From Pocillopora verrucosa (taxonomy: Eukaryota; Cnidaria; Anthozoa; Scleractinia; Pocilloporidae), in assembly GCF_036669915.1 (NCBI RefSeq), contig NC_089317.1:1561571-1625570 (forward strand): a stretch of 64,000 nucleotides of DNA. Reading direction: 5' to 3'. The stretch's first letter is position 1. Each line of letters begins with the position of its first letter. Under the pieces are notes generated by a model, which saw only the letters and a program-made list of their open reading frames with translations, did not search any database and was not told where the DNA came from. A program made the translations under genes and the position numbers. Below are positions 5,557-27,486 of the stretch, piece by piece.

Positions 5557-6485
5557 AAACCCGAATCCTGCCCAAAAGTAGGATTAAATGGACATCGACT
5601 CCACCAAACGAGGATAAGCAACATTTGTATTTAATAAATTTTTGGAGGCTTTTAGTAGTTGCTTCCTAGCCGTCCAATATGATATTATTGTGGTTTACTG
5701 ATGATGAATGATGAACTTAAAGCCTCCCACAGGTGAAACAAACCCATTTAAGGAAGGTAAAGTGGTTGTACCCTCGTGTGCCGTACCAAATAAATTTTTC
5801 GCGCTCGGCAATGGCCGCTTTAAAAGCAAAAAAAATGCAGATGTCTTCCAAATAATTATGATAAAATGGAAGTGCGAGAGCCTCGTTATATACAATCTCC
5901 AGTCGTATTGCACTATAAACTACCGTACCTGGTTCGGTTGTAATCGGATAAGACAGAATCTTGAGTTAAGATTTAGAACCTTGTGCAAGATGTTCCATTT
6001 GATGTTCGATTCATTCGGCACGCAAGATGTTGAGATGTGATGCTTTTGGCAACGAGCTTGATATAATTTCAAAGGAGAATTTGAGGCCATTTTACGGTTG
6101 CAAGTCTATAGCAAGGCTGAAGATAGATATTATCATGACTGTAATGATTTTTTCTGGCTTATCAATGCAACATAAAATGACGGATACCTTTCTTAAGACA
6201 GTAAGGGCCGGTAATTCAAACAAAGTTTAGCCGTTATTTAACAAAGCCGCGTTCTAAGCCTTCTTGAACTAAGCTGAATCTGTTATCTGAACATTTACTT
6301 TTGTAAACAGTGTCAATAGGGCCAAACCAAGTTGTGGAAAGACATTTATTTAACGAAAAAAAAAACCAGGCTTATAGAGAATACACAAGGCCCATTGCTT
6401 GCGTAAAACTCTTGCAAATTACAAGCCCAAAGAGTTCTCTCAAGCTACATTACACTGGCTATCCTTATTATTCTGATTTTATTAC

Positions 6486-6833
6486 CTTAAGTAAGTGCGA
6501 AAAGGTAACTCCCAGCTGGTTTCGGAGGTTGCTGTTTTGGCTGTTGACCGAGAAATCATGTTTGTTCAGTTCACAAGTTCCTTTTCCGTTCTTCATAGAG
6601 GACAATTTGAAGTTTGTGGAAGTACACCAGGCAGTGTTCTGACAGTGTTGGCCGCACGATAACAAACTGGGAGAATCAAAATGATCAACTACGTATCCGA
6701 TAAGCTCTGTATCTTTCAGGGTTGTAAAATAGGATGAACGGGAAGATGTTGTATAGTTCTCGATGGAGAATTTCAATTTATCAGCCAAAATAACTCGAAG
6801 CAGAACTGACATAAAAAATTTAGTGTACTTCAT
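6486..6833 (-). pseudogene. Orphan PAN/apple exon, duplicate of exon 1 of the gene at 24,679
   Basis: ATG at 6,833 opens MKYTKFFMSVLLRVILADKL, a signal peptide, followed by a PAN domain with LLSCGQHCQNTAWC and GTCELNKHD. The exon ends ...CACTTACTTAAG|gtaata, a good donor. The translation is the same as that of 24,679-25,026, so the copy is recent. The left-arm breakpoint at about 5,557 removed what would follow: no EGF or CTLD exon lies downstream on the - strand. It is either a dead fragment or, if transcribed, gives a short PAN-only secreted peptide of 121 residues by read-through into the intron. Confidence 0.75.
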
Positions 6834-23720: not shown

Positions 23721-24678
23721 ACAAGCGGCGAGGTACATATCTACCATATGCCACCGACACTAAGATGAAAAATTGTTTAGTATGTACAAGAAAAGTGCGA
23801 TAGAAGATTAATTTTTATTAATCATTTATTCCTGCAACGATTACTACATTTTCTGGTGCAAATCCCGCGCGATATATACTAACATGCATTATCAAAACTA
23901 AGGTGTGAGTTATCTGCCGAAGCCTTCGGCACACATGAAGTTTGATAATCCATGATATCATGCGAAAATCTAACTCAGTAACTGTTTAGTTATACATTTT
24001 TAGAACAATCTGCAAAAGAGGGCACTTTTCTCCAAGTATGATAAAGTTTAAGAACAATACACGGACGATAGACTTGGCAACTATTGGACTTTGAATGCAA
24101 AATCCGCCGCTGATATTGCACTTGTCATGTCAATTTCGAACGCTATTGTGTATCGATTGAATGCTCTCGACCAATCATAATGTAATTTAATGTATGATAA
24201 TTAAGCTCAGCAGGAACCAAGCATTACTCTATTCTATCTAGGTAAATAAAAGGATCGCAGATTAACAGTGTACCACGGCACTATAGAGATTTCAGAACAA
24301 AAAAGCTGCCAATTTTAATTTCTTTTGATCATAATAGATTCAATGTCTTTACGCTGTATTCTCCATTCAATTTTTGACAACAATGTTTATAAAAAAACAT
24401 TTTGTCTTAAACCTACTTCAAGCCTGATTGATGATGCAAGTTTTGTCGCATGGAATAATCTTGACCATCTCTGATACAGAAAAAAATAAACCAGGCAGGG
24501 AAAACCTCTATGAAGCCAGGTGTTCTGTCTTCACTTTTTTCTAAATGATTCCTGTTTTCATCAAAAAGATTAAGTGCTTCTCGATATTGGACCTTTACAA
24601 GAAACATAACTAAATAATGAACAAAAACCGCTTGATTACCGCCCTTACGATGGTTAATGTCTGTTTTAGTCCTTAATT

Positions 24679-27486
24679 ATGAAGTACACTAAATTTTTTA
24701 TGTCAGTTCTGCTTCGAGTTATTTTGGCTGATAAATTGAAATTCTCCATCGAGAACTACACAACATCTTCCCGTTCGTCCTATTTTACAACCCTGAAAGA
24801 TACAGAGCTTATCGGATACGTAGTTGATCATTTTGATTCTCCCAGTTTGTTATCGTGCGGCCAACACTGTCAGAACACTGCCTGGTGTACTTCCACAAAC
24901 TTCAAATTGTCCTCTATGAAGAACGGAAAAGGAACTTGTGAACTGAACAAACATGATTTCTCGGTCAACAGCCAAAACAGCAACCTCCGAAACCAGCTGG
25001 GAGTTACCTTTTCGCACTTACTTAAGGTAATAAAATCAGAATAATAAGGATAGCCAGCAGTGTAATATAGCTTGAGAGAACTGTTTGGGCTTGTAATTTA
25101 CAAGAGTTTTACGCAAGCAATGGGTCTTACGTATTCTCTATAAGCCTGGTTTTTTTTTTCGTTAAATAAATGTCTTTCCACAACTTGGTTTGGCCCTATT
25201 GACACTGTTTAACAAAGTAAATGTTCAGATAACAGATTCAGCTTAGTTCAAGAAGGCTTACGACGCAGCTTTGTTAAATAACGGCTAAACTTTGTTCGAA
25301 TTACCGGCCCTTACTGTCTTAAGAAAGGTATCCGTCTTTTTATGTTGCATTGATAAGCCAGAAAAAATCATTACAGTCATGATAATATCTATCGTCAGCC
25401 TTGCTATAGACTTGCAACCGTAAAATGGCCTCAAATTCTCCTTTGAAATTATTTCAAGCTCTTTGCCAAAAGCATTACATCTCAACATCTTGCGTGCCGA
25501 ATGAATTGATTGAGCTAATGGAACATTTTGCACAAGGTTCTAAATCTTAACTCAAGATTCTGTCTTATCCGATTACAACCGAACCAGGTACGGTAGTTTA
25601 TAGTGTAATACGACTGGAGATTGTATATAACGAGGCTCTCGCATTTCCATTTTATCATAATTATTTGGAAGACATCTGCATTTTTTTTGCTTTTAAAGCG
25701 GCCATTGCCGAGCGCGAAAAATTTTGTTTGGTACGGCACACGAGGGTACAACCACTTTACCTTCCTTAAATGAGTTTGTTTCACCTGTGGGAGGCTTTAA
25801 GTTCATCATTCATCATCAGTAAACCAGAATAATATCATATTGGACGGCTAGGAAGCAACTACTAAAAGCCCCCCAAAATTTATTAAATACAAATGTTGCT
25901 TATCCTCGTTTGGTGGAAACGATGTCCATTTAATCCTACTTTTGGGCATAATTCGGGTTTGGGAAAATATTTTACACGCATAACATATATGTCAGTTTCA
26001 TGTGTTCTTTGGGTCAAACTATCGCGTTCATCAAGCCGATAATATCTCTGGTTGAAACTGCTATGACGGCTTAATGAATGGGAGAAATATTTCAGAAATT
26101 TAAATCTGTTAATTTTGCAATTTTTCCTTCACATCAAACAACATGCATCAACAAATTTATAGTGGCCATGAGCTGCAGTTTATTATCCGACTACTTTACA
26201 ATCCAGAGACTCCTTACATTAAACTTTGAATTGAAGGTTACTACCATCCTTAAAGTGCTTACAACTCTTGCTTCTAACCTGTTTCATAGGGCTGTTTGGT
26301 TACCGGCTGCATGAATGACGGTTCATGTTTATCAGACATGAAGAAAAACACGTTCACATGCTCTTGCAAAATACCTTGGATCGGAGACAGATGTGAAATT
26401 ATGCTTCCCGCAACCAATGGATATGAGTTTTCAGGTAGGGCATATCTCCATGAGCTCATGTTTGAATTTTTGACAAAAAGTGCTGAAAATAAGCCTGAAT
26501 GAGGCTTGCCCATACTGGTCTGCGCAGACGAGGTTTGCTTCGAGAATGACCCGGCCCAGCCTTTTTTACGAGCAATTGCCTAAACACAAAGGAATACTTT
26601 CAAACGTACGACAAAAAATGGGTTGCCTTTCGAGGTGATTCAACCTGAGATTAGAAAGCTTCCCGAGGTTGTGTGAAAAGGTCAGTGGTTACATGACTTT
26701 TGGGGTGAAATTCTGGTCATTTTGTTGCTTCATGTATTTGAAAATGCAACAAATTTGTCTTCCTCATCAACCTCACTGTAACCTCAAAGTAGTTCGATAC
26801 CTTTCGGAAAGCGTGGAATTAGCAAGATTTATCAGTAATTCATAGATTCTCAGTTAAATCCTTACGACCTCAAGAATTATTTTACTCCAAAAAATGAGCT
26901 GACAGAAACTATCGTTCATTCATTTCCTTTCATGAATGCTCGTATTTTGACTGTTTGAAGCATTTATTAGCCCTGGGGCGTTCAAATCGGAATCTCTTTA
27001 TAAACGAGTGAATCGAAGTCGTTACTGAGAATCTCATTTTTTTGTCGAACAGGCAATTGTCCCGAAGGTTCCGGAGCCGTTTTTGAAAGCTCGTGTTTTT
27101 TTATAATCGATATTCCAACTGCTTCTTGGAACTATGCTCGTTGGACTTGCGAAAATTATGGAGCAGACCTGGCCGTCATAAAATCCGTGAACGAGAATAA
27201 CATCATCCTAAACCTGGTAACGAATCAGCCAACAGTACAAGCGTTAGGCGTGTGGATTGGACTGCAACGAAATTTTTTTCAAGACTACGCGTTCTACTGG
27301 GTCGATGATACTCCGCTGGAATACTCTGCATGGGCCGAGTCACAGCCGAGCAGTACCCGAGAAGAGTGCGTTCACACCGTCACTGAAGGGCAGGAAAATG
27401 GAAAGTGGAATGACAATTATTGTGGTTTGAACGGGAGGGTGTCACCGAATAATTTTCCTTTCATTCTTTGCCAAAAAAGTATTTAA
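24679..27486 (+). CDS. Secreted PAN-EGF-C-type lectin protein (three exons)
   Basis: Exons are 24,679-25,026, 26,290-26,434 and 27,053-27,486, giving 308 residues. Phases are 0 then 1 and the lengths add up exactly. Exon 1 has signal peptide MKYTKFFMSVLLRVILADKL and a PAN domain (LLSCGQHCQNTAWC, GTCELNKHD). Exon 2 is an EGF-like domain: GCLVTGCMNDGSC, FTCSCKIPWIGDRCE. Exon 3 is a CTLD: NCPEGSGAVFESSCFF, VWIGLQRN, FYWVDDTPLEYSAWAESQPS, GKWNDNYC, FILCQKSI-stop. WND is kept but EPN is replaced by QPS, so the sugar site is atypical. Polyadenylation signals AATAAA are at 27,687 and 27,708. The outer end of the right arm falls in intron 1, so only exon 1 was copied to the left arm. It is an intermediate between the PAN-CTLD and PAN-EGF-FReD genes. 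Confidence 0.85.

Follow-up and report, generated by a model that had tools for sequence, protein, structure and literature searches.

Is the large inverted repeat found in a cluster of lectin-type genes an active palindrome, in which exchange between the arms generates lectin diversity, or is it the relic of a single copying event? We addressed this question for a 64-kb stretch of coral DNA (the window), in which genes made of a PAN exon followed by a C-type lectin domain (CTLD) exon form an array of direct repeats that is interrupted by one reversed block. This block, the left arm (5557–13816, minus strand), is the reverse complement of a right arm (18368–25960, plus strand). In the account that we favour, at a probability of about 0.65, the left arm would have arisen through a single inverted duplication by template switching or end joining, followed by birth-and-death divergence of both copies.

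An inverted block within an array of direct repeats

The two arms are opposite in orientation, hold their parts in the same order, and are separated by a 4,551-bp spacer; orientation and boundaries are both directly observed. Global alignment of the arms yields 97.0% identity over 7,096 columns, with 211 mismatches (2.97%), a value that falls to 194/7,045 (2.75%) once 51 columns that border one insertion and contain 17 of the mismatches are excluded (L 10795–10845, L and R denoting left- and right-arm positions), as was done for the clustering tests described below. There are 26 indel events, pieces of one insertion being counted separately, such that 497 aligned bases are absent from the left arm and 1,164 from the right. 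The biggest indel is a 1,049-bp segment absent from the right arm (L 7899–8947); approximately 345 bp are additional in the right arm (R 21486–21830, which the alignment renders as three gaps, of 56, 45, and 207, separated by mismatched columns), and 133 bp are absent from the left arm (R 18888–19020). Self-BLAST recovers the same structure, with four main minus-strand blocks among the best 80 matches listed, i.e., 5557–7663/25960–23873 (94.6%), 8949–10801/23717–21831 (95.9%), 10840–13295/21484–19022 (97.0%), and 13297–13816/18887–18368 (98.5%), scoring from 902 to 4,110 bits and hence far beyond chance; a small block (7747–7897/23872–23720, 95.4%) lies among them. Together, self-BLAST and the global alignment bear out the large inverted duplication of the original prediction, the arm coordinates of which are correct to within a few bases, with the inner edge at 13,816/18,368.

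The arms sit among tandem units. To the left lies unit A (1–5559, plus strand), which holds a degraded gene and is a direct repeat of the spacer unit A′ (13840–18059, plus strand); the two match at 84–96% in blocks (e.g., 92.9% for 2162–3427 versus 15215–16506 and 92.1% for 454–1123 versus 14040–14707). In unit A, the upstream part of the PAN exon (~449–775) is lost, and the CTLD exon (3301–3594) is short by ~44 residues (a gap in the tblastn alignment) yet still a single open frame. Unit A′ carries a predicted open gene, in which a PAN exon (14023–14364) with a GT donor is followed by a CTLD exon (16380–16805). Next on the plus strand is gene B (18083–20206), with open PAN (18083–18424) and CTLD (19766–20206; Lectin_C E=1.5e-18) exons, which spans the arm edge at 18368 and leaves its start (18083–18367) in the spacer. 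Splice sites, which appear to be phase 0 in both genes, and signal peptides were assessed by eye; as read from the sequence, A′ and B are predicted two-exon PAN–CTLD genes. The spacer of ~4.6 kb with one intact PAN–CTLD gene is therefore as had been predicted, with the start of gene B in addition. At the far end, gene E (24679–27483, plus strand) comprises a PAN exon (24679–25026), an EGF exon (~26290–26403), and a CTLD exon (27046–27483); arm edge 25960 falls inside its first intron, placing the EGF and CTLD exons beyond the arm.

Outside the left arm, the PAN and CTLD exons that were located all lie on the plus strand, and only the left arm is reversed. Plus-strand PAN exons lie at ~0.4, 14.0, 18.1, 21.8, 23.5, 24.7, 28.7, 34.5, 40.3, and 45.4 kb, while those on the minus strand lie at 6.8, 9.2, and 10.9 kb, together with a fragment at 13.8 kb; the CTLD exons were located within the first 27.5 kb of the window. 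Since the right arm is collinear with the remaining plus-strand cluster, and the left arm stops inside the E intron and the B PAN exon, the right arm is the likely source, and the left arm is most simply taken as a backward copy set between the older direct-repeat units A and A′.

Junctions of the left arm

At the outer junction (5557–5559), the sequence matches A′ through 5559 and, from 5557 onwards, the reverse complement of the right arm, leaving a 3-bp microhomology (AAA) common to the unit tail and the arm. At the inner junction lies a 17-bp filler (13817–13833, minus strand), which matches unit A 4984–5000 in inverted orientation at 16 of 17 positions; this part of unit A corresponds to the stretch where A′ resumes. 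On both strands, the rest of the window has no site that matches the filler at 14/17 or better, and from a uniform-base estimate, the chance of such a match is ~4e-4 anywhere in the window and ~3e-7 no farther than 50 bp from where it would be expected. The flanks of the left arm correspond to positions 17,452 and 17,879 of one unit, which means that ~426 bp of target are missing relative to this paralogous unit. Microhomology, filler, and missing target can all be read off directly, with microhomology or templated filler present at both junctions, in keeping with a duplication; on the basis of sequence, these features are those of end joining or template switching.

Two other explanations for the edges were considered and rejected. 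Derivation of the filler from the upstream sequence of gene B itself was rejected because that sequence matches at only 12/17 positions, versus 16/17 for the A type. Transposon ends were likewise set aside, as inspection by eye, without a transposon library, revealed no terminal repeat or target duplication at the joints.

Gene content of the two arms

The left arm contains the end of the B PAN exon with the B CTLD exon, PAN exon C, pseudogene D, and the E PAN exon. Because its edges cut genes B and E, it has no complete PAN–CTLD gene, and the possibility that it provides a second whole set of lectin genes is ruled out, only fragments being present. The copy of the B CTLD exon (12118–12558, minus strand; Lectin_C E=8.5e-20) is open and has no PAN start of its own. 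PAN exon C (10577–10927, minus strand) is uninterrupted, with a PAN_1 score (E=0.0032, 17.7 bits) under the Pfam cut-off of 21.4 bits. Gene D (8645–9192, minus strand) consists of a PAN exon and what remains of a CTLD, the latter interrupted by two stop codons within 8839–8645. The E PAN exon copy (6486–6833, minus strand) has neither an EGF nor a CTLD exon, and encodes a protein identical to that of the right-arm exon at 24679–25026, just as was originally noted.

Damage in the right arm is of a different kind. Its gene D has one stop at its end and has lost its 3′ half through the 1,049-bp deletion, while in its PAN exon C, ~38 bp are replaced by an insertion (21486–21830, plus strand) made up of a near-perfect 165-bp hairpin (21484–21648) and an adjoining tRNA-Thr(GGT)-like sequence (21747–21819). 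A further tRNA-Thr-like copy, 86% alike over 121 bp, occurs at 28001–28073 (minus strand), suggesting a tRNA-derived repeat. With C and D damaged in the right arm, and B, D, and E in the left, each arm has been damaged independently; both the cut genes and this private damage are matters of observation. Separately, a 19-bp motif in approximately two copies is found at matching places in four units (2205–2243, 12979–13022, 15258–15296, and 19306–19344), its orientation being reversed in the left arm.

Divergence between the arms

Compared with A′ over two stretches of gene B, each arm carries differences at 52–53 of 711 and 65–68 of 668 sites (~7–10%). Divergence between the arms is about one third of this, which places the copying after the formation of the units. 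With A′ as the outgroup, changes were shared evenly between the arms, 16 being polarised to L and 14 to R over 1,379 columns (L 6 and R 7 in the 711-column stretch; L 10 and R 7 in the 668-column stretch); gap columns were left out of these counts and of those for synonymous and nonsynonymous changes.

Ratios of nonsynonymous to synonymous differences for the B CTLD exon (4/1), C (6/0 and 3/1), and a 243-bp part of D (5.5/4.5) show, in small numbers, little or no constraint. Over the arms as a whole, exons and non-exon sequence diverge alike (47/1482 versus 164/5614, P=0.61, with misaligned columns at the exon C edge included). Within the 348 bp of the E PAN exon, the arms differ at 2 positions, both synonymous (0/273 nonsynonymous sites), amid flanks that differ by 3.8% (300 bp on each side) or 4.4% (600 bp on each side). 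Were one copy unconstrained, ~6 nonsynonymous changes would be expected, and the Poisson probability of finding none is ~0.002, taking as inputs 261 sites and one half of the 4.8% by which the outer block diverges. This shortage indicates that the left-arm copy has been either constrained or recently converted; the left arm as a whole is probably near-neutral debris, the E PAN exon being the one potential exception.

Cluster setting and neighbouring sequence

The window holds PAN/CTLD units as direct repeats, in agreement with the lectin-cluster setting first proposed for it. The spliced product of gene B matches 23 proteins in a protein search, of which those with named sources are all from stony corals, i.e., Pocillopora meandrina (P0001, the best match), Orbicella faveolata, and Oculina patagonica. 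Identity between P0001 and the A- and B-type exons of the window is 85–93% among the six best matches listed. The window is thus nearest in its proteins to Pocillopora, and derives from a stony coral, probably one of the pocilloporids. Half-CTLD remnants occur upstream of the CTLD exon in both A′ (15720–15854) and A (2658–2774), and the annotation of P0001 includes such a half-CTLD.

Lectin_C scored above its Pfam cut-off (22.6 bits) in all four full CTLD exons submitted (those at 12118, 16380, 19766, and 27004), at 54.9–71.9 bits, consistent with assignment of these exons to the C-type lectin domain by Pfam score. For PAN_1, one of four submitted PAN exons exceeded the cut-off (23.2 bits), two fell under it (21.1 and 17.7 bits), and one had no match.

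Beyond the arms, positions 28586–48950 contain genes that combine one PAN and one EGF exon with a C-terminal domain of ~168 amino acids. One copy of this domain (43335–43838, 168 amino acids) had no Pfam match, and a single match in PDB sequences up to E=1 (Filamin-A, E=0.27), which was taken as chance; protein P0012 matches it at 69%. From 50859 to 64000 and running past the window end, a direct tandem array with a ~3.3-kb unit has four copies that are 94–95% identical; it holds EGF-like exons, and no PAN exon was found there with PAN queries. There is also a minisatellite at 33017–33414, with 18 copies of a ~22-bp unit. A scan of IMG/VR with P0001 gave five stretches that fit a pattern, none of which was confirmed.

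Discussion

We propose that a ~7.6-kb block (18,368–25,960), comprising the 3′ part of B, exon C, gene D, and the E PAN exon, was copied once in inverted orientation and inserted into a break where A and A′, two tandem units of the PAN/CTLD cluster that are older than the copy, meet. Such an event could have proceeded via template switching of the type known as microhomology-mediated break-induced replication (MMBIR), or via end joining of the polymerase-theta/foldback type at a double-strand break. Both copies would later have diverged as do other members of the array, i.e., by birth and death.

Several points weigh against this account. Approximately 5 bp between the filler and A′ (13834–13838) are of unexplained origin. 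Mismatches between the arms are clustered (dispersion index of 2.7 in 200-bp bins, with 0 of 2,000 shuffles as high), and the longest identical run reaches 286 bp (shuffle P=0.047); plain single copying with uniform divergence does not explain such clustering. Conservation of the E PAN exon leaves room for conversion of, or selection on, the left-arm copy. The direction of copying rests on collinearity, which could mislead after repeated rearrangement of an array, and arms such as these could also result from direct duplication followed by inversion. Lastly, the inverted-copy account is drawn from a single assembled window and the paralogous units inside it.

Clustered mismatches and the conserved E PAN exon are also the points that speak for the view first put forward for this locus, namely that of an active palindrome in which the arms exchange by gene conversion, the spacer flips, and lectin exons are shuffled; conversion or selection could explain both. 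Uneven constraint also predicts clustering, though, and the arms are neither nearly identical nor free of private indels, being 2.75–3.0% apart with 26 indel events. Nor do both arms hold intact genes, the left arm having only fragments in place of a whole PAN–CTLD gene. The proposed role in favouring conversion and driving lectin diversity is therefore unsupported; by the features tested, the locus is not a conversion-maintained palindrome, and we regard an active one as very unlikely. Slightly more improbable still is a variant in which the arms serve as a slow conversion reservoir, such that the undamaged left-arm PAN exons C and E might repair or re-diversify the right-arm genes; the E PAN exon would then be a recent conversion tract.

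The inverted structure might instead be an assembly artefact, in which the right-arm region of the second haplotype was set backwards in the contig as the left arm. Coral assemblies are known to keep allelic duplications (PMC10236652). Against this, two false joins rather than one would be required, the 64-kb window contains no Ns, and the microhomology and inverted filler resemble repair joints. Moreover, the divergence between the arms, which comes with a 1-kb indel, exceeds the 1.14% heterozygosity reported for Pocillopora cf. effusa (PMC10236652), though the species may differ and divergence may locally be higher, a value of 2.3% being given in that paper for Porites lobata. An artefact is in our view unlikely, and we hold it about as improbable that the B–E block was duplicated directly beside A′ and then flipped by an inversion ending at the block ends. 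The latter would suit an array dominated by direct repeats, and the filler would under this model have started out upstream of the block, oriented as in the units; on the other hand, two events with coinciding breakpoints would be needed, and the filler fits an A-type unit better than it does the sequence upstream of B, so that it is not simply the edge of the block itself. A single inverted duplication remains the account that we prefer.

In two corals, almost a third of predicted genes were reported to be tandem duplicates, and the C-type lectin-like family to be abundant in Pocillopora cf. effusa (Noel et al. 2023, PMC10236652). The present locus resembles the clusters described there, which evolve by birth and death, in being a coral cluster of diverged direct copies; it differs in that one block is inverted with its edges inside genes, the word "inverted" occurring 0 times in the main text of that paper. 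The locus hence fits the picture of coral tandem duplication, with one inverted, gene-cutting copy added. Among the top 10–15 papers listed per search on coral lectin and PAN clusters, inverted duplications, and palindromes, none describes this structure in its title or the start of its abstract, which is no proof of absence.

Counterparts for parts of the structure exist in other systems. At yeast breaks, short templated inverted insertions are described, most of ~5–34 bp (PMC11724301), a range that includes the 17-bp inverted filler seen here. Those insertions come from a yeast experiment with foldback at the break itself, while the filler here is found next to an inverted copy of 7.6 kb, with no direct template retained beside it. 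Human Y-chromosome P8 and the other sex-chromosome palindromes considered in PMC6790999 are likewise inverted repeats with genes, and rearrangement joints reported in that source have 2–6 bp of microhomology or, for one of the deletions, an insertion of 14 bp; unlike in those palindromes, the arms here share ~97% identity and are separated by many indels, and gene fragments are all that one of them holds. Origin-dependent inverted-repeat amplification offers another route to inverted copies, as laid out in PMC10766186, where the starting point is an inverted triplication whose junctions are palindromic; by contrast, the two arms here flank an older unit, and there is no third copy in the window. 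The kind of event is already known, and the locus gives the impression of routine birth and death of genes, not of a switch that generates diversity.

Ultimately, what the locus offers is a base-level view of the scars that a single inverted duplication has left in a lectin-type array of a coral, the growth of such arrays being otherwise described, in the account of PMC10236652, as tandem duplication. If real, this event would mean that such arrays also grow by partial, inverted, gene-cutting copies; it would explain the presence of some orphan exons, and would caution annotators not to equate each PAN or CTLD exon with a gene.

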